A stretch of 64,000 bases of DNA from Wenyingzhuangia marina (GTDB lineage: Bacteria; Bacteroidota; Bacteroidia; Flavobacteriales; Flavobacteriaceae): the NCBI RefSeq assembly GCF_900130035.1, contig NZ_FQXQ01000003.1, positions 496,001 to 560,000 on the forward strand, given 5' to 3'. The notes under the pieces were generated by a model. The model saw only the letters and a list, made by a program, of their open reading frames with translations, ran no database searches and was not told the DNA's origin. The translations under genes were made by a program, and so were the position numbers. Positions 52,791-60,718 of the stretch are shown one piece after another (the first letter of the stretch is position 1; each line of letters begins with the position of its first letter).

Positions 52791-52821
52791 TTTGGTCAAT
52801 TCTAAAAGATAAATACATTTG
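52791..52821 (+). promoter_or_regulatory. consensus promoter of the zinc-type operon
   Basis: TTTG at 52791-52794, spacer of 19 nt, TACATTTG (TAnnTTTG) at 52814-52821. This is a textbook Bacteroidota promoter. Transcription should start at about 52827, so the dyad at 52827-52851 is placed right at the start site. Confidence 0.8.
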
Positions 52822-52826
52822 CAAAA

Positions 52827-52851
52827 GTAAATGCATCATTGTTGCTTTTAC
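52827..52851. promoter_or_regulatory. dyad at the transcription start of the zinc-type operon (candidate Zur operator)
   Basis: Left arm GTAAATGCA at 52827-52835 and right arm TGCTTTTAC at 52843-52851 match as an inverted repeat in 8 of 9 positions, with a 7-nt centre. Its position just after the -7 box is typical of repressor binding. A zinc-responsive regulator of the Fur family is the natural candidate from the genes downstream. It could instead form a leader hairpin. Confidence 0.55.
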
Positions 52852-52877
52852 GGGATAACTCTCCTTAAACAGGATTC

Positions 52878-53189
52878 ATGAAAAATAGCTGGTTAAAAAT
52901 TACGATAGCCCATTTGTTTCTCGCTCTTTTTATTTCTATAAAAATGGCAGGTTTGCATGCTTTTTTTCATTCTGATGAGGATAATGGTCATATAAATCAC
53001 TGTAAAGTTTGTGAGCATGTTGTTTTAGACAATTTAACTCCTAGTTTAGCAAGTTATACAGGTGATTTTGAATTTGATCTTCTAAAAAAAGAAATAACAC
53101 AAGAAGTTAAAACTGACTATAACTTTGTAGTAATTTCTGCTAGAGATACTTCTCAACTTTTTTCTAGGCCTCCGCCAGCAAAAAAATAA
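52878..53189 (+). CDS. small His/Cys-rich secreted or membrane protein
   Basis: 103 aa. An N-terminal hydrophobic stretch (ITIAHLFLALFISIKMAGL) acts as signal or anchor. Next comes a cluster of metal-binding residues, HAFFHSDEDNGHINHCKVCEH, of which His, Asp and Cys are the notable parts, then a low-complexity tail ending in RPPPAKK. The CxxC next to several His suggests zinc or copper binding. It is the first gene of the probable zinc operon, 160 bp before the TonB receptor. No named family recognised. Confidence 0.7.
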   Translation: MKNSWLKITIAHLFLALFISIKMAGLHAFFHSDEDNGHINHCKVCEHVVLDNLTPSLASYTGDFEFDLLKKEITQEVKTDYNFVVISARDTSQLFSRPPPAKK

Positions 53190-53229
53190 TTAAACCTAAG
53201 AACCTTTTTATATAACTACATGATTTTTT

Positions 53230-53249
53230 TGCCATAGTATTTAATGGCA
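53230..53249 (+). other. small dyad in the gap before the TonB receptor gene
   Basis: TGCCAT-N8-ATGGCA, a perfect 6-bp inverted repeat. It lies in the 159-bp gap between the first small gene and the receptor gene. It has no T run, so it is probably not a terminator. Confidence 0.4.
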
Positions 53250-53348
53250 TTAAAGAATCTATATAGGGAAGTTATGTATGTAGGTATCGTTATTTCTTTG
53301 TCTTCAAATTCTTGTTAGGAGACAATTATACAAATCAATCAACAAATT

Positions 53349-55736
53349 ATGTATCGTAAATTATTGAGTATGTTCCTTTTTTGGGGAATATATATTACTG
53401 CGTTTGCACAACATATTCCTCATCAAATAAAAGGAAAGGTGTTAAATGCTAGTTCTTTAAATCCTATTGAAGGAGTTACTGTTATGGGGAATGGTCTTTT
53501 TGCTGTTACTTCAGCAAGCGGAGAGTTTTATATCAATAATGTTAAAACAGATCATTGTGTATTAACTATTTCTCATGTGGGTTTTGAAATAAAACAAATA
53601 CATGTTACCAATGATGAAAATGATGAAGATGAGGAAGCGATAAAGATATTATTAAATCCTTCTAGGACCTCTTTAAAAGAAGTTCAGTTATATGCCAAAA
53701 AACAATTTCATCAACCCATAGAAATGCCTATGATATCTAAACAGGTTGATAAGGAATTTATGGAGCAAAACAGAGAAAATAGTTTAATGCAAACTTTGTC
53801 TAAAATTCCAGGAGTAACTACCATTAATATTGGATCAGGACAATCAAAACCTGTGATTAGAGGTTTAGGGTTTAATAGGGTAGTAGTGGTGCAAAACGGA
53901 GTAAAACACGAAGCACAACAATGGGGAGCTGATCATGGTTTGGAAATAGATCAGTATGCCGTAGAAAGTATAAAGCTTATTAAAGGGCCAGCTGCTATTA
54001 TGTATGGTTCTGATGCCATTGCAGGTGTAGTTGATATTCAACAACCTAGTATTCCACTAAAAAATACGTTTAAAGGAGAGGTAAATGTTTTGGGAGAAAG
54101 TAACAATGATTTGTTGGGGATTTCCACAGGAATTACAGCAAGGACTAATCAATGGTTTTACCGAACAAGATTAACGTATAGAGATTTTGCTGATTACAAA
54201 GTACCAACAAATAAAATTAGTTATGAGAACTACCTTTTTAATCTTCATGACAACAATTTAAGAAATACAGCAGGTAAAGAGGCTGATGCTAGTTTTAGTT
54301 TGGGGTACAAAAACAATAATTTTATTACTGAAACTACTTTTAGCAATGTAAATGCAAAAAACGGTTTTTTTGCGAATGCTCACGGATTGGAAGTAAGAAA
54401 TTCCGATATAGATTATGATAGTTCTAACAGAGATATCGATTTTCCATATCATAAAGTCAATCATTTTAAAATTACCAACAACACTAAAATTGCATTAGGA
54501 GATCATCAATTAGTTATTGATGTAGGGTTTCAAAACAATATAAGAGAAGAACATTCTGAACCGGTGCCACATGGTTATATGCCAAAACCTGAAAACAGCA
54601 AAGAACGCAGATTTCATAAAAATACCTATAGCTTAAATATTAAAGATGATATCCATATAAACGACCAACATCATTTGGTAGCGGGAATCAACTTAGAACA
54701 GCAACAAAACACTATTGGAGGATGGGGGTTTTTAATTCCAACCTACCAACGTTTTACAGCTGGAGCTTTTGTATATCACCAATTAAAAATCAATCAAAAG
54801 TTAGACATCATGTCTGGAATTCGTTATGATTTTGGATTGATAAATACCAAAGAACATTTTGATTGGTATAGAACTCCAGTAGAAAATAATGATGGAACTA
54901 CTTCACAAGTTTATTTACAAAGAGCTCGTAACAAAAGCCTTGATTTTAGCAATTTTAGTGGAAGTGTTGGAGTCAATTATCAGCATCACAACACTACTTA
55001 CAAAGTAAATATTGGAAAGAGTTTTAGAATGCCTTTGGCTAATGAGTTGGCTTCTGATGGAATAAATTACCATATGTATAGATATGAACGAGGGAATATC
55101 AATTTACAACCAGAGTCATCTTACCAAGCAGATGTTGAATTTAATTATGCTGGGAATAAAGTACATGTAAATGTAAGTCCGTTTGTTAATTATTTTGACA
55201 ATTATATTTATTTAAATCCAACTTCTAATTACGATAATTCTGAAAATCTACAAACGTATGAGTTTACGCAAGCCAAAGTTTTTAGATATGGAGGAGAAGT
55301 AAGTGTTGCTACTACTTTATTTAAAAAGTTAGAACTACAGGCATCGGGAGAATACGTGTATTCTAGACAAACTAGTGGAGCAAAAAAAGGATTTACCTTA
55401 CCGTTTTCTCCACCTTTATCAGGATTGTTTACAGCTACTTATTTGTTTAAAGATTTATCTTTTATAACATCACCTAAGTTGGTGGTAGATTATAAAATAA
55501 CTGCTTCTCAAGAAGAAATTGTACCTCCTGAAGAAATTACAGAAGGATTTCAAGTGATGAATATTTCTTGGTTTGCTAATCTTTATCTATTAAATAAAAC
55601 ACAGTCCGTAAAAGCAAAATTCAAAATCAACAATGTGTTTAATACCAAATATTTTAATCACACAAGTTTCTATCGTTTAATTGATGTTCCAGAACCTGGA
55701 AGAAACTTTTCAATATCATTAACAATACCATTTTAA
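53349..55736 (+). CDS. TonB-dependent outer-membrane receptor (probable zinc)
   Basis: 795 aa. A signal peptide ends near AFAQ. The N-terminal carboxypeptidase-regulatory domain spans about 25-115 (GKVLNASSLNPIEGVTV). The plug follows with RGLGFNRVVVVQNGVKHE and HGLEIDQYAVESIKLIKGP. The 22-strand-like barrel continues to the C-terminal FSISLTIPF ending in Phe, the usual outer-membrane signal. A His-rich stretch at about residue 398-420 (HSEPVPHGYMPKP) recalls the ZnuD zinc receptor loop. It lies inside the operon with the DUF4625 and CobW genes, which supports zinc uptake. Other metals or metal-chelates cannot be excluded. Confidence 0.9.
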   Translation: MYRKLLSMFLFWGIYITAFAQHIPHQIKGKVLNASSLNPIEGVTVMGNGLFAVTSASGEFYINNVKTDHCVLTISHVGFEIKQIHVTNDENDEDEEAIKILLNPSRTSLKEVQLYAKKQFHQPIEMPMISKQVDKEFMEQNRENSLMQTLSKIPGVTTINIGSGQSKPVIRGLGFNRVVVVQNGVKHEAQQWGADHGLEIDQYAVESIKLIKGPAAIMYGSDAIAGVVDIQQPSIPLKNTFKGEVNVLGESNNDLLGISTGITARTNQWFYRTRLTYRDFADYKVPTNKISYENYLFNLHDNNLRNTAGKEADASFSLGYKNNNFITETTFSNVNAKNGFFANAHGLEVRNSDIDYDSSNRDIDFPYHKVNHFKITNNTKIALGDHQLVIDVGFQNNIREEHSEPVPHGYMPKPENSKERRFHKNTYSLNIKDDIHINDQHHLVAGINLEQQQNTIGGWGFLIPTYQRFTAGAFVYHQLKINQKLDIMSGIRYDFGLINTKEHFDWYRTPVENNDGTTSQVYLQRARNKSLDFSNFSGSVGVNYQHHNTTYKVNIGKSFRMPLANELASDGINYHMYRYERGNINLQPESSYQADVEFNYAGNKVHVNVSPFVNYFDNYIYLNPTSNYDNSENLQTYEFTQAKVFRYGGEVSVATTLFKKLELQASGEYVYSRQTSGAKKGFTLPFSPPLSGLFTATYLFKDLSFITSPKLVVDYKITASQEEIVPPEEITEGFQVMNISWFANLYLLNKTQSVKAKFKINNVFNTKYFNHTSFYRLIDVPEPGRNFSISLTIPF

Positions 55737-55770
55737 ATACAATTATTAATCAATTAAAATCAAATTAAAA

Positions 55771-56550
55771 ATGAAAACAACAATGAAGAAATTAAACATT
55801 AAATTTTTAGCCATGGCTTTTTTTATGGCCTTAACCTTACAATCTTGTAGCGAAGACGACGACCCAATATTAAATGCACCTATTATTTCTGGTTTTGAAT
55901 ATGGAATTCATGGAGAAGAAGGGCATAAAGCTTATAGAGGAAAAGATTTGCATTTAGAAGCAGAAATTACTGCAGAAGCAACTGTAAAAAGTATTTCTGT
56001 ATCTATTCATTCTCACGAAGCTGAAGTAGGTGAAGGAGAAGTAGAATGGGATTTTGAACAAACTTTTACCGATGTAAAATATTTGGTAATCAACCCAACA
56101 TTTCATGAACATATAGATATTCCTGCTACAGCTCCAGCTGGAGAATATCACGTAGAATTTGTTGTAACAGATGAATTAGGAAACACTACAGAAATAGAAG
56201 GTCATGTTGATATTTTGAGTCAAGTAGCAATCAGTGACTTTGAAATGGATGAAACGGTTGTTAGAGGAAATGATATTCATGCAGAATTTATGATTGCTGC
56301 TGTTAACGGAATTCACAACATTACTGTAAATATTCATGCACATGGATTAACAGTAGGAGCTGGTGAAGAAGAATGGCATTTTGACCAAGTTTATGAAGAT
56401 GGTTTTCACGAATTAACAGAAGCTGAATTTCACAAACATATTGATGTTCCTGCAACAGCACCAGCTGGAGAATACCATGTACAAATAACTGTGAAAGATG
56501 AAGATGGAAACACTGCAGTTTATGATGGTCATATAGACGTTACAAAATAA
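55771..56550 (+). CDS. DUF4625 lipoprotein with internally duplicated His-rich domain
   Basis: 259 aa, lipobox TLQSC near residue 26. Two homologous units follow. The first, about 38-148, includes HSHEAEVGEGEVEW and HEHIDIPATAPAGEYHV. The second, about 150-259, includes HAHGLTVGAGEEEW and HKHIDVPATAPAGEYHV. Conserved His pairs at equal places in both units suggest one metal site per unit. An in-frame ATG at 55783 (MKKLNIKFLAM) is a better signal start than 55771. It probably faces the cell surface or periplasm and binds zinc for the receptor; this is inference. Confidence 0.8.
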   Translation: MKTTMKKLNIKFLAMAFFMALTLQSCSEDDDPILNAPIISGFEYGIHGEEGHKAYRGKDLHLEAEITAEATVKSISVSIHSHEAEVGEGEVEWDFEQTFTDVKYLVINPTFHEHIDIPATAPAGEYHVEFVVTDELGNTTEIEGHVDILSQVAISDFEMDETVVRGNDIHAEFMIAAVNGIHNITVNIHAHGLTVGAGEEEWHFDQVYEDGFHELTEAEFHKHIDVPATAPAGEYHVQITVKDEDGNTAVYDGHIDVTK

Positions 56551-56590
56551 TTAAACAAATGAAAGAGGTTGTTTAAAAATGTATTAGAAA

Positions 56591-56671
56591 ACGTCATTCT
56601 GAATTTATTTCAGAATCACAACATACTTTAAATAGTAGCTATGAGAAACTGAAACAAGTTCAGTTTGACGA
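56591..56671. repeat. palindromic intergenic element between the two DUF4625 genes
   Basis: Outer arms CGTCA and TGACG enclose two inner hairpins, ATTCTGAA/TTTCAGAAT and AACTGAAACA/GTTCAGTTTG-type pairing. Similar CGTCATnCTGAA...GTTCAG...GACG elements are scattered in Flavobacteriaceae (recollection). It interrupts the operon without a T run. Confidence 0.7.
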
Positions 56672-56713
56672 AGTTTTATCTTTTAAACAATCTCTTTTTA
56701 ATAAAACTAGCAA

Positions 56714-57187
56714 ATGAAGTTTTTAAAACCTTATTTTATTTTATGGTTAATGGTAGTGACTGCTTGTTCTACCGATAATGATATTGATAAAGATTTAGAC
56801 AAGCCCACTATTACTGTTAATTATGATGGTGGTTTCCCTCAAGGATGTGAACAATTACAACGAGGAAATACTTATATCATAAAAGCAAAAGTTACAGACA
56901 ATTTGGCTTTGGCCTCTTATAGTATTGATATCCACAATAATTTTGATCATCATACACATGATGATCAAGGAAAAATCTGTGACTTAGAACCTATAAAAAC
57001 CCCAGTAAACCCTTTAATTTTTAAAGAAAATTTTAAAATAGAAGGAAATTTAAAAGAACAAGAAATTGAAATAGAATTAAACCTTCCAGAAAGTATTGAT
57101 ACTGGTGATTATCACTGTGCTTTATCGGTAACTGACCAAACAGGATGGAATACTAGAACTTCTATTGATATTAAAATTGTGGAGTAA
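56714..57187 (+). CDS. second DUF4625-type lipoprotein with a His-rich cluster
   Basis: 157 aa, lipobox VTACS near residue 17. The domain is a single unit with the cluster HNNFDHHTHDDQGKICD and later the DYHCALSVTDQTGW block. It is shorter than the tandem paralogue upstream and shares its overall order, so a common ancestor is likely. The His/Asp cluster again suggests metal binding. It ends 14 bp before the CobW gene. Confidence 0.75.
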   Translation: MKFLKPYFILWLMVVTACSTDNDIDKDLDKPTITVNYDGGFPQGCEQLQRGNTYIIKAKVTDNLALASYSIDIHNNFDHHTHDDQGKICDLEPIKTPVNPLIFKENFKIEGNLKEQEIEIELNLPESIDTGDYHCALSVTDQTGWNTRTSIDIKIVE

Positions 57188-57201
57188 AAGTTTTATAAAA
57201 C

Positions 57202-58401
57202 ATGAAAAAATTACCTGTAACTGTATTGAGTGGATTTTTAGGAGCTGGAAAAACTACTTTATTAAATCATATTTTACACAACAAAAAAGGATTGAAAGTC
57301 GCTGTAATTGTAAACGATATGAGCGAAGTTAATATCGATTCTCAGTTTATAGAAAGTGAAAACACCTTGTCTAGAACCGAAGAAAAGTTGGTAGAAATGT
57401 CTAACGGATGTATTTGCTGTACCCTTAGAGAAGATTTAATGGTAGAGGTAGAAAAATTGGCAGCTCAAAATAAGTTCGATTACCTAATCATAGAAAGTAC
57501 AGGTATTAGCGAGCCCATTCCTGTAGCACAAACTTTTAGTTTTGAAAGTGAAGATGGAACCATAGACTTAAGTAGATTTAGCTATGTTGATACCATGGTG
57601 ACTGTAGTAGATGCGTTTAACTTTTTTAAAGATTTTTCTAGTTCTGATTATTTAGCAACTCGAGAATTAACAGATATTGAAGGTGATGATAGAACCATTG
57701 TAAACTTATTAACCGATCAAATAGAGTTTGCAAATGTTATTATTGTAAATAAAAAAGACATGGTTTCTGCTGATGCTTTAGAAGAGTTGTGTGCCGTTAT
57801 TAAAAAATTAAATCCCGAAGCTCAAGTAATCACCACCAATCATTCCGAAGTTGCTTTAGATAAAGTAATTAGTACAGGATTGTTTGATTATGAAAAAGCA
57901 GAAGCTTCTGCAGGTTGGATCAAAGAATTGGAAAATGAACACACTCCAGAAACCGAAGAATATGGTATTGGTTCTTTTGTGTTTAAAACTAAAAAACCAT
58001 TTCATCAAGACCGTTTTTTTAATTATTTAAACACCAATTTTCCTCCAAATATTATTAGAAGTAAAGGATTGTTTTGGATGGCATCAAGATCACATCAAGC
58101 CTTGTTATGGAGTACCGCTGGTGGTTCTGTAAAAGCTGATCATGCTGGAGTTTGGTGGGCATCTATGCCGTATAAAGAAAGAATTAATTATGCTTCTTTT
58201 AATGAAAATACAGCGCTAATAGAATCGGACTGGGATGCAGATTTTGGAGACAGAAAAATAGAATTGGTATTTATAGGTCAAAACATAAACAAAGAAAATA
58301 TGGTATTAGCATTGAATAAATGTTTGTTAACAGACCTAGAAATTATAGAATGGAAAAACGGATTGTTTCCTCAAAAAGACAATTGGCCTATTGTAAAATA
58401 A
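57202..58401 (+). CDS. CobW/ZigA-family metallochaperone GTPase
   Basis: 399 aa. The P-loop is [14 protein letters not shown] (11-19 core), then NDMSEVNID. The metal-binding motif GCICC at residues 69-73 is followed by the GTPase motif IIVNKKDMV, and the CobW C-terminal domain with [14 protein letters not shown] follows. The NDMSEVNID and CxCC pattern with this C-terminus is the ZigA/ZagA type, known to be induced in zinc shortage to deliver zinc to metalloproteins. It ends the operon that begins with the TonB receptor. No terminator is seen directly after it. Confidence 0.9.
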
Positions 58402-58557: not shown

Positions 58558-58579
58558 ATACAAACATCAAATACAAAAT

Positions 58580-58614
58580 AAAATCGCTGTATTGACTTTC
58601 AATACAGCGATTTT
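58580..58614. terminator. bidirectional terminator
   Basis: Stem AAAATCGCTGTATTGA / TCAATACAGCGATTTT with a 3-nt loop, T-rich on both sides. It ends the minus-strand DUF4139 gene and blocks read-through from the zinc operon. Confidence 0.93.
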
Positions 58615-58624
58615 ATTTTATTAA

Positions 58625-60718
58625 TTAGTCAATAATCAATCTTTTGTCCTTAGGGTGTTTTACTAAATATTCAATATTTAAAGTTTTACTAGTGGTTTTA
58701 GGAATGGTTAAGTTCCACTTTAATTCTCCAGACAAGCTATTCATTTCTGCATCTGAAATATTTAAAACCTCAACTTTAATTTCATCTGTGACAGAAACTG
58801 GCACTTGATCTAACACTTGAATATTAATAGGTTGATTTTTGTTATTTTTAATATCAACTTTCCAATGTCTAGTAGTTTCTACATTTTTACTCAAGAACTT
58901 CTGACCCACATTTTCGGTTACTGGACTTCTGTTAATATCTATTTGTTTGTCAACTCCTAAAGAAATAATAATTTCTTCTTTTACAGCTTCTAAATCTAAT
59001 ACTCCTTTGCTTTTAAAAGTGTTGTCAAAAAACACATTGGTCTCTCCATCTAACAATTGATATTTTTCCCAATCCTTAATTTTAGCGGTTAAATATGCTG
59101 ATTTGTTCACTTTTGGAACTGTGTAATATTGATATTCTGCAGGAACTTGTAATGTTTTTAAGGTGATTTCTTTTACGTTTACAGTACTTTTTACTGTTTG
59201 ATTCTTTTCAATCTTAAAATTAACAGCTGTTTGGTTGATGCTTGTAACGGCATTGGCTCCATTTTTAGTGGTAATAACAACAACACCATCACTTCCTCTA
59301 CTTCCATAGACACTAGTGGCAGAAGCATCTTTTAAAACTTCAAAAGACTTTATTTCCTCTGGAGTTAAATTAGATATTTTATCCACAGAAACTCCATCAA
59401 CTATGTACAAAGGAGAAGATTCATTATCATCTTCTGTACTAGTAGTTCCTCTAATTGCTAGTCCTGGAACATGACCTGACAACATTGAAGTTAAGTTAGA
59501 ATTAGGTACTTTAACTTCTTTTGGACCAACAGAAGTAATAGAGCTCACTGTACTTGCTTTCTTCTGATTTCCATAACCAACCACCACAACTTCATCTAGA
59601 GATTCACTACTAGGGTTCAATCTAAAATTTAACGTTTCATTTGTTACGAATTTTTCTTGAGTTTCATAACCTAAATAACTTACTTGAATGATTTTGGTAT
59701 TGTTAGGTAAACTCAGAGCATACTCTCCATCAAAATCAGTCATTGTAATAATATTAGTACCTTTTGCAGAAACATTAGCTCCTGGTAATGGAGTTCCACT
59801 TTTATCTAAAACTTGACCTTTTATATAAGAAATGTTGTTAGTAGTACTTCTTCTTTGGTTAAAAGACAATTGATAAGGTGTTAATTCTGGAGCTACTCCA
59901 GAAACTGTTGGGTTGTCTGATGAAAAAGTCAAAGCCACATCATTCCAATCTACTTGTGAGTTTTGCTGTAAATTGGCTTTATAAGTAATTTCTAAAGGAT
60001 TGTTAATGTCAATTGCTTTGATGTCATAAGAAGGATACCAACTCACATTGTCTACCAAATAAGTAATTTCAAAATTTGTGTTTTCTATTTTGGTAGTTTC
60101 TACTTTTACAAAGATTTCTCCTGTGGGTAATTCTTTGTTATTACTAAGGGTATTAATTTCTCTAGTAATTTTTCTTTGCTCTTCTCGTAAATTTGTGAGT
60201 CTTTTAGCAATAGCCAATTCTTCTAATTTTAATTTTTTATACTGATTGGCATAATAAGTAGCAGTTTGGCTTAAATTGTTTACGGTTAAGGTTTGATTGG
60301 TTCCTCCAATGGTTTTGTTTTTTTGTAAAAAATCGATGTTCTGACTTACTATTTCAGACTGAGTGATCTCTAAGGTAATTTTATCAGTGATTGTTTCGCG
60401 CTTTTCTTCCAAAGCTTTTACTTGCTCAGATTTTTTAATTTCGTTGAGGTAGTTTTTTTTGTGATTTACGGCAAGAATATTAATGCTTGGAGCTGTTTTT
60501 ACTTGAATGCTTTTTACATCGATAAAAGGAGAGAGTCCATTAAAGATAAGAGTAGTAATTCCTTTTTTTAAAGAAACTTTTACATCTCTGTTAATTTGTG
60601 CCTTGTTTAAGAAAACAGTGGCTTTGTTTACTTGGCTTGCTGTTTTTTGTTCTTCTTGGGCAAAAGTAATTTGCGTTAATAGTACAAGTGCTATCAGCAC
60701 TCTATAAGTCTTTTTCAT
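58625..60718 (-). CDS. DUF4139 protein with an inserted carboxypeptidase-regulatory and TonB-plug module
   Basis: 697 aa with signal peptide (LVLLTQITFA). The N-terminal DUF4140-type part (22-130) is followed by a coiled coil (about 160-195) and then the first DUF4139 segment (215-285). At about 296-368 a carboxypeptidase-regulatory domain starts (GQVLDKSGTPLPGA), then DEVVVVGYG at 375-383 and a TonB plug to about 487 (YGSRGSDGVVVITTKNG). DUF4139 resumes at about 500 and ends at LVKHPKDKRLIID. The inserted part is what SusC receptors carry at their N-terminus, but there is no 22-strand barrel here. DUF4139 proteins are related to MuiA, of uncertain function. Confidence 0.85.
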   Translation of the reverse strand: MKKTYRVLIALVLLTQITFAQEEQKTASQVNKATVFLNKAQINRDVKVSLKKGITTLIFNGLSPFIDVKSIQVKTAPSINILAVNHKKNYLNEIKKSEQVKALEEKRETITDKITLEITQSEIVSQNIDFLQKNKTIGGTNQTLTVNNLSQTATYYANQYKKLKLEELAIAKRLTNLREEQRKITREINTLSNNKELPTGEIFVKVETTKIENTNFEITYLVDNVSWYPSYDIKAIDINNPLEITYKANLQQNSQVDWNDVALTFSSDNPTVSGVAPELTPYQLSFNQRRSTTNNISYIKGQVLDKSGTPLPGANVSAKGTNIITMTDFDGEYALSLPNNTKIIQVSYLGYETQEKFVTNETLNFRLNPSSESLDEVVVVGYGNQKKASTVSSITSVGPKEVKVPNSNLTSMLSGHVPGLAIRGTTSTEDDNESSPLYIVDGVSVDKISNLTPEEIKSFEVLKDASATSVYGSRGSDGVVVITTKNGANAVTSINQTAVNFKIEKNQTVKSTVNVKEITLKTLQVPAEYQYYTVPKVNKSAYLTAKIKDWEKYQLLDGETNVFFDNTFKSKGVLDLEAVKEEIIISLGVDKQIDINRSPVTENVGQKFLSKNVETTRHWKVDIKNNKNQPINIQVLDQVPVSVTDEIKVEVLNISDAEMNSLSGELKWNLTIPKTTSKTLNIEYLVKHPKDKRLIID

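Follow-up and report, generated by a model that had tools for sequence, protein, structure and literature searches.

A DUF4625 lipoprotein operon with a ZnuD-like TonB receptor and a leader-like first gene in Wenyingzhuangia marina: a putative outer-membrane zinc-acquisition system

Introduction

SusCD, BtuBG and similar systems of the Bacteroidota are pairs of a TonB receptor and a surface lipoprotein with an acidic export signal. We analyzed a stretch of 64,000 nucleotides of the Wenyingzhuangia marina genome (contig NZ_FQXQ01000003.1, positions 496,001 to 560,000; this whole stretch is called the window), in which a five-gene operon encodes a leader-like small protein, a ZnuD-like TonB-dependent receptor, two lipoproteins built of DUF4625 domains and a ZigA-type GTPase. 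From sequence comparison, we propose with a probability of roughly 0.6 that this operon is an outer-membrane zinc-acquisition system. A sequence-only reading of the same DNA had called it a probable zinc-acquisition operon, which is well supported by comparison; zinc itself is deduced from the neighboring genes and a predicted regulon, and the first gene looks leader-like.

According to the papers concerned, the zinc ligands of ZnuD are Asp-99, His-100, His-499 and Glu-340, and ZnuD itself was once misannotated as a haem transporter. The leader CruR, which lies upstream of a TonB receptor, senses copper by a CXXC motif and stalls at RAPP, with 45 residues (within 1-2) between the motifs; an N-terminal export signal and Rho-dependent termination are further marks of it. 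In the CutF survey, copper, nickel and cobalt are mentioned, and Bacteroidota leaders and TonB neighbors in general are already counted; the type of leader itself is therefore already known. A word search of the main text of both leader papers did not find "zinc" (the symbol Zn was not searchable), and ZnSO4 appears once, in a blot lane. The Caulobacter Zur study lists the DUF2946 genes CC1775 and CC2720 among the downregulated genes, CC2720 having a predicted site and adjoining czrC and czrB, so a link between DUF2946 and zinc regulation is not wholly without precedent. In Proteobacteria, Zur regulons bring TonB receptors, a GTP cyclohydrolase and a COG0523 GTPase under the control of a single member of the Fur family; a word search of the cited Zur review found no occurrence of "bacteroid" or "flavobact". 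In the Bacteroidetes surface-export paper, the acidic signals SDDDD and SDDFE send lipoproteins to the surface. DUF4625 is not named in the literature searched, mostly outside subscription papers, and no Bacteroidota outer-membrane zinc-uptake system of this kind is described there, as judged by titles and opening abstracts.

Results

The operon lies on the forward strand at 52878-58401, and all five open reading frames (ORFs) were verified at their place and strand, with gaps of 159, 34, 163 and 14 nt between them. The claim of five genes in one direction was thus borne out by ORF coordinates, strand and Pfam. The features are as follows:

52791-52821, + strand: promoter-like site of the Bacteroidota type, TTTG-N19-TACATTTG, exact pattern match
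52832-52846, no strand assigned: putative Fur-type (Zur-like) operator TGCATCATTGTTGCT, a 7-1-7 palindrome with 2 mismatches to TGCAACAnTGTTGCA; the leader starts 31 bases on
52878-53189, + strand: leader-like ORF, 103 amino acids, with a hydrophobic N-terminus (by eye), H27-x3-H31, C42-x2-C45 and C-terminal RPPPAKK
53190-53348, + strand: leader-receptor gap, 159 nt, with two predicted RNA hairpins, one of which pairs AGGAGA
53349-55736, + strand: TonB-dependent receptor, 795 amino acids, ZnuD-like, with D195 and H196 in the plug
55771-56550, + strand: two-domain DUF4625 lipoprotein, His-rich, with CSEDDD at the lipobox
56714-57187, + strand: one-domain DUF4625 lipoprotein with invariant H74, H80, H82 and H134
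57202-58401, + strand: COG0523/CobW GTPase, ZigA type, with GFLGAGKT and GCICC motifs
58576-58618, no strand assigned: predicted bidirectional intrinsic-terminator-like hairpin 3' of the last gene, which may be the transcript end

Pfam recognized two DUF4625 (PF15418) domains in the first lipoprotein and one in the other (1e-56 and 1.4e-40; 191 and 139 bits against a curated cut-off of 27), TonB barrel, plug and carboxypeptidase-regulatory domains in the receptor, and cobW and CobW_C in the GTPase. In the 3.2-Mb genome of W. marina, DUF4625 occurs at this locus only, and the operon's GTPase is the only match to the ZigA model. The barrel model found 32 receptor ORFs and missed at least one more, described below (L150). 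The genome further encodes an ABC-3 permease pair and a single ZIP transporter.

We surveyed the neighborhood of DUF4625 genes in 101 loci, comprising 20 stretches from a phylum sample in which DUF4625 scored above the cut-off in 18 of 395 genomes, 80 loci from named records, and the window. The 80 loci were the best 80 of 94 with the window's one-domain DUF4625 protein as the query, so the survey is weighted to near kin. Four genomes with sub-cut-off DUF4625 matches were left out, a strict DUF4625 rule dropped L054, L055 and L131, and L083, a duplicate of L045, was removed, leaving 97 loci; only identical sets were deduplicated, and close species, such as those of four Tenacibaculum records, were counted apart. 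The linkage counts rest on this strict set. A loose DUF4625 profile was discarded, as it caught unrelated lipoproteins, apparently via their signal peptides (e.g., three ORFs in L036).

We found that this TonB receptor was present in 88 of the 97 loci and stood immediately upstream on the same strand in 72; five loci ran off the contig, and the other 20 had another arrangement, with the receptor still in the locus in 16. The commonest order on the DUF4625 strand was receptor, two-domain protein and one-domain protein (39/97), followed by the receptor with two shorter DUF4625 proteins (16/97), and the linkage, to be compared with the 32 receptor ORFs found by the barrel model in W. marina alone, spanned Flavobacteriaceae, Bacteroidales and Balneolaceae records. 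Within 5 kb of DUF4625, a Fur-family gene was found in 33 of the 101 loci, MerC in nine and FolE in seven. DUF4625 genes are thus not mostly away from metal genes, the outcome that would have spoken against the sequence-only reading. In Winogradskyella endarachnes (L069) and in L042, genes for Fur, the leader, the receptor, DUF4625 proteins, MerC, FolE, ZigA and a MacB-type ABC pair are clustered; the members family-tested in L042 were Fur, MerC, FolE (GTP cyclohydrolase I, PF01227) and the ABC pair. A 146-amino-acid gene beside the ABC pair was set aside as a ZrgE candidate, its likeness being one that we only presume and the Protein Data Bank (PDB) search giving no match.

The ZigA-type gene was present in only 4 of the 97 loci, which rules it out as a core member; it is an optional one. 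In Flavivirga aquimarina (L057), it directly follows the one-domain DUF4625 gene, as in the window. ZigA (NF038288) was by far the best NCBIfam model for the window's GTPase (552 bits; next MRF, 175), so the name ZigA-type stands as a best match and falls short of the curated cut-off of 600. The P-loop GFLGAGKT and a CxCC motif (GCICC), which we take to be COG0523 markers, are both present.

ZnuD was the best match of the receptor in the PDB search (5.5e-20), followed by OprC (2e-9). It was also the best NCBIfam receptor model (NF038289), at 149 bits against a cut-off of 950; the receptor can therefore be called ZnuD-like as a best match, well below the curated threshold. Assuming an offset of 14 between the published numbering and the PDB chain, ZnuD Asp-99 and His-100 align with D195 and H196 in the plug, and among 81 receptors Asp is found in 80 and His in 81 at these positions. 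H372 and H408 are invariant in the 81 receptors, and the window's receptor contains 26 His. A system for copper acquisition, with a CruR-like copper-sensing leader, an OprC-like importing receptor and Cu(II)-binding His residues in DUF4625, is the chief rival explanation; it draws on the second place of OprC, on a match to the TIGR01778 copper receptor model (5e-24), and on Met columns 147 and 411, which are Met in 65 and 66 of the 81 receptors. Nevertheless, ZnuD far outscores OprC, and the 81-receptor alignment has conserved Asp, His and Glu columns and no conserved Cys column.

To judge the DUF4625 proteins, we compared their conserved residues, predicted folds and export signals. In one-domain proteins (n = 61), the invariant residues include H74, N76, F77, D78, H80, H82 and H134, and C45 and C89 are nearly so; in two-domain proteins (n = 47), H61, H112 and H114 are invariant. 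AlphaFold models of the window's two lipoproteins (predicted local distance difference test scores of 88.4 and 89.6) are all-beta except for the signal helix. From the strand positions, H74 at a strand end, H80 and H82 in the next loop and H134 at the start of another strand could meet. The nearest solved folds are immunoglobulin (Ig)-like, PKD, carbohydrate-binding-type and biofilm-protein domains, the one-domain model reaching Z values of up to 9.7; since the matches are generic Ig/PKD-type domains, the search for a metal-site ancestor by fold was dropped.

Positions +2 to +6 after the lipobox Cys read SEDDD and STDND in the window's two lipoproteins, the signal of the two-domain protein being read by eye because the lipobox pattern missed it (Q at -2). 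Among proteins with a recognized lipobox, at least two Asp or Glu residues stood there in 58 of 62 of the two-domain type and 42 of 56 of the one-domain type (from 86 and 78 proteins examined, respectively), against 16 of 84 other predicted lipoproteins, a comparison set that includes spurious ORFs. These signals suggest that both lipoproteins are probably displayed on the cell surface.

The DUF4625 proteins might instead be periplasmic or surface zinc buffers or adhesins of the same regulon and not partners of the receptor, a reading that the PKD, carbohydrate-binding and biofilm-protein folds would suit. The receptor is missing from nine of the 97 loci. Five of them reach the contig end and another, L109, is a short contig, but in L040, L044 and L095 there are genes to either side, none of them a receptor, and L040 keeps the operator. 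We consider this alternative unlikely, given the receptor in 88 loci, the recurrent order in 39 with other receptor-DUF4625 combinations in most others, and export signals resembling those of surface lipoproteins. The proposal of the sequence-only reading, that the DUF4625 proteins are surface zinc-binding partners of the receptor, thus fits the conserved His residues, the export signals and the shared Fur-type operator; the indirect deduction of zinc, the rarity of ZigA and the leader-like first gene speak less well for it.

We next considered the control region. The promoter match at 52791-52821 is to what we take to be the Bacteroidota consensus. With 8 occurrences in the window and 6.9 expected, the pattern is not enriched; its support is its position, and the consensus alone was discarded as evidence. 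The "textbook promoter" of the sequence-only reading is therefore a real match that proves nothing by itself, and it gains weight because a palindrome starts 10 bases downstream. This Fur-type palindrome has the consensus TGCAACAnTGTTGCA, and its copy in the window is TGCATCATTGTTGCT; five relatives (L080, L082, L086, L094 and L105) have TGCATCATTGTTGCA, one base off the window operator, as their box. At up to 2 mismatches, 29 of 208 upstream regions contained the palindrome, where first-order shuffles gave an expectation of 0.4; the motif had been spotted by eye and was then tested on the same sequences.

The W. marina genome contains 13 sites at up to 2 mismatches, and only the two best and the window's own lie outside ORFs. 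One of the two best sites is 57 nt before an AztD-like lipoprotein gene. The other is 39 nt before a second operon (L150:5357-11633; C4:379356-385632) encoding a 186-amino-acid lipoprotein, a receptor (ZnuD again the best NCBIfam model) and a Fur homologue, and also 75 nt before a divergent ORF of 374 amino acids. By eye, a cation-diffusion-facilitator-like gene stands just beyond this second operon.

In 14 relatives, 48 operator sites were found against 3 for the reversed pattern, which may be rarer through composition. We sorted the 48 by target, a sorting that is our own reading. Metal-type genes lie downstream of 23 of them. DUF4625 loci account for 12 of these, nearly all being operons that supplied the motif; the 12 take in L040, with its lone DUF4625 gene, and a MerC-FolE site next to the L045 operon. 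The 11 independent targets are MerC-like genes at eight sites (one gene Pfam-tested, L184), one AztD-like gene, one lipoprotein-receptor pair (best model ZnuD) and one other leader; at two of the eight MerC-like sites a ZigA-type gene comes next, scoring 553 and 549 bits where the cut-off is 600. Sixteen sites lie inside genes. Three sites that carried an intragenic flag from the script, in L051, L203 (second site) and L208, overlap long ORF calls yet stand just upstream of the counted gene. The remaining nine are intergenic before genes without an evident metal link. In four of these cases, in the related genomes L190, L195, L200 and L206, the operator is 153-156 nt before a gene that we take to be CoA-transferase-like, in what looks like a pair of such genes, and for which we know of no metal link. 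AztD-like lipoproteins (L036:5305-6525, - strand; L149:5453-6670, - strand; L183:3491-4723) stand behind the box in two cases and beside a DUF4625 operon in one, scoring 66-82 bits against an AztD cut-off of 400.

Four Fur homologues are encoded in the W. marina genome, and either C4:414785 or C4:383524 may be the regulator that binds the operator. The former shares 61-64% identity with three Fur proteins linked to the operon, one in a Polaribacter record and the others in two Winogradskyella records. For the latter, Zur is the best NCBIfam model (36 bits against a cut-off of 167), and Fur (6dk4) is slightly ahead of Zur (4mtd) in the PDB search. In L191, family tests of the genes after the box-linked Fur gene gave an Nramp transporter and a regulator of the iron-dependent-repressor type, which points to a possible role of manganese or iron. 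Manganese, iron, nickel or cobalt might also be the substrate, as might a ligand that carries a metal, for example a metallophore or a metalloprotein, and the hemin and transferrin receptor models, which match the receptor at about 1e-36, and the boxes before genes without an evident metal link would agree with that. We regard this as improbable, since the ZnuD model and structure score best, the ZigA, FolE and AztD-like neighbors and co-targets point to zinc, and ZnuD was itself misannotated in the haem direction.

We then investigated the first ORF, which the sequence-only reading had described as a His/Cys-rich small protein. The His and Cys ligands are present; on its own the protein has no Pfam match, DUF2946 (PF11162) included at E up to 1, and its relatives suggest a leader-type ORF. 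The leader family, with 62 members including the window protein, has in common H27 (62), H31 (58), C42 (62), C45 (59) and a C-terminal R/K-x-P-P (62) and shares little else. The variants of this end are RAPP (39), RPPP (18, the window's type), KPPP (3) and RGPP (2), and it lies 2-5 residues from the C-terminus in 58. In the 59 members with C-x2-C, the spacing to R/K-x-P-P is 43-45 residues in 38 and 50-52 in 21, the window's subgroup (51). The ORF is within 900 nt of the receptor in 54 of the 62. Sixty-five of the 88 DUF4625-receptor loci have an upstream R/K-x-P-P ORF, 62 of these with C-x2-C; none was found in the other 23, six of which start at a contig end. These results suggest that the first ORF is a probable metal-sensing ribosome-stalling leader.

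The alternative is an ordinary periplasmic metal-binding protein, and the hydrophobic N-terminus, the His/Cys ligands, the 23 loci and the lack of a strong, conserved RNA structure in the gap speak for it. Folding of the leader-receptor region was weak in the window (z of -1.96 across 251 nt, -1.51 within the gap itself). A conserved hairpin was rejected, no covariation test being made, since the 31 gaps folded out of 54 had a mean z of -1.19, with 8 values under -1.5. Such a protein is nonetheless quite unlikely: besides the four metal-ligand positions, the most conserved part is R/K-x-P-P, its spacing from C-x2-C is fixed, and only 8 of 477 other small ORFs end in R/K-x-P-P, most of them leader-like themselves.

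The leader profile matched in 36 of 148 genomes. Among 37 further stretches, a leader was found in 36, with R/K-x-P-P in 35, C-x2-C in 27 and H-x3-H in 19, and a receptor-profile protein was the first or second gene after the leader in 31. In two genomes of one genus, leader-type ORFs (L259:5119-5451, - strand; L266:5088-5414, - strand) are followed, after 272 and 301 nt, by a ZigA gene whose score (608 and 605.5) exceeds the cut-off of 600, and no receptor match was found downstream in either stretch. Leader relatives directly before ZigA argue for zinc.

The leader gives the copper explanation its main footing. Its anatomy is CruR-like (CXXC, a RAPP-type end and a TonB receptor next), the gap of 159 nt compares with 162 nt in Bordetella, and DUF2946 is matched by 15 of 54 leader-family members (E up to 1, best value 1.4e-4). 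However, none of the family-tested neighbors and box targets (Fur, MerC, FolE, ZigA, AztD-like and Nramp) is a copper gene, and leader relatives precede ZigA in two genomes; together with the receptor evidence, this leaves copper with a slim chance. The first ORF may work like CruR; we do not file it as CruR because the Pfam match and the motif spacing fail.

Other leader-type ORFs were also seen. Seven loci (L052, L075, L120, L121, L122, L126 and L127) have a second small R-A/G-P-P ORF between the receptor and DUF4625, with C-x2-C in L052 and L075 and the motif at least 15 residues from the end in L075, L120 and L122. In L248, L251, L254, L260 and L261, R-A/G-P-P leader-type ORFs without C-x2-C stand before receptors and have a D-C-x-F/L-like stretch instead; these are possibly leaders for another ligand.

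Two further observations concern the surroundings. A short pattern between the two DUF4625 genes was rejected as a repeat family, having a single occurrence in the window. Beyond the operon, 58625-60718 on the - strand encodes a 697-amino-acid DUF4139/DUF4140 protein in which carboxypeptidase-regulatory and TonB plug-like domains (299-479) lie inside the DUF4139 match (217-690) without a barrel match, an odd chimera.

Discussion

From the gene and motif anatomy we infer the metal, its binding, the stalling and the surface location, and the operon may work as follows. When cell zinc is low, a Zur-type Fur-family repressor would leave 52832-52846 and the operon would be transcribed. The first ORF would act as a leader whose nascent chain carries the H-x3-H/C-x2-C metal site and the C-terminal R-P-P-P stall-type motif, and extracytoplasmic metal could change how it stalls and so control the receptor gene 159 nt further on, in the manner of CruR with copper. 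The acidic export signal would take both DUF4625 lipoproteins to the cell surface, where invariant His residues on Ig-like beta-sandwiches could bind zinc and pass it to the ZnuD-like receptor. The Asp-His site of the plug would carry zinc into the periplasm, and ZigA, here and in a minority of relatives, would distribute it in the cytoplasm, judging from its family.

We put forward, as a more tentative joint proposal, that this leader and its many kin in the Bacteroidota stall at R-x-P-P unless or until their H-x3-H/C-x2-C site binds zinc outside the cytoplasm, which would add to Zur a second zinc control linked to export; that in some genomes each surface component has its own leader; and that DUF4625 is the founding surface lipoprotein for zinc capture in a metal-ion counterpart of SusCD and BtuBG.

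Zinc is favored because of the ZnuD, ZigA, FolE, AztD-like and Fur-type associations, and copper mainly because of the leader's kin. Several points weigh against the zinc-acquisition system. The characterized kin of the leader sense copper, and 23 loci lack a recognizable one. ZnuD His-499 aligns with N573, two residues before a conserved His (H575, 65/81), and Glu-340 falls outside the aligned parts. The receptor, the GTPase and the AztD-like lipoproteins all miss their cut-offs, ZigA is found in only 4 of the 97 loci, and the DUF4625 folds are silent on metal. In L054 and L055, which have DUF4625 above the Pfam cut-off and are too distant for the strict set, no receptor was found nearby. As to the operator, the by-eye origin of the motif, the composition of the reversed control, the overlap of DUF4625-locus sites with the source operons and the two mismatches in the window copy all count, as do the sites inside genes (10 of 13 in the W. 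marina genome, 16 of 48 in the relatives) and the nine without a metal link. In five relatives, among them L191 with its Nramp gene, the box-linked Fur gene is followed by a gene for 622-635 amino acids and then a smaller one.

If the zinc-acquisition system is as proposed, DUF4625, an unnamed domain family, gains a testable job, and an outer-membrane zinc uptake route is predicted for members of a large phylum. The leader family suggests that stalling leaders, known for copper, may also sense zinc, and the operator sequence could be used for listing the zinc regulons of these bacteria.

Among known systems, Neisseria ZnuD resembles the window's receptor as its best PDB match, in the aligned, conserved Asp-His of the plug and in the predicted zinc-type regulation. 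Unlike ZnuD, the receptor is far below the NCBIfam cut-off, has a carboxypeptidase-regulatory domain and stands with DUF4625 lipoproteins and a leader; we know of neither beside ZnuD. CruR-bfrG of Bordetella and CutF-cutO of Rhodobacter share with the operon a small exported-type first ORF with C-x2-C, an R-x-P-P end and a long gap, and in CruR-bfrG a TonB receptor is likewise next. In contrast to CruR and CutF, the window protein has H-x3-H, a spacing of 51 and not 45, no DUF2946 match and a predicted zinc ligand, and it ends in RPPP where CruR has RAPP.

The Zur regulons of Proteobacteria hold the same kinds of genes under one Fur-family regulator, although with another box, and FolE here is GTP cyclohydrolase I (PF01227). 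An AztD-like lipoprotein stands behind the same operator and recalls the zinc metallochaperone AztD, whereas its 66-82 bits contrast with the cut-off of 400. The MacB-type ABC pair beside ZigA in relatives recalls the ZrgABCDE transporter, as described for ZrgB. SusCD and BtuBG, finally, share with the operon a TonB receptor with acidic-signal surface lipoproteins; here, in contrast, the predicted ligand is a metal ion and the lipoproteins consist of DUF4625 Ig-like domains.

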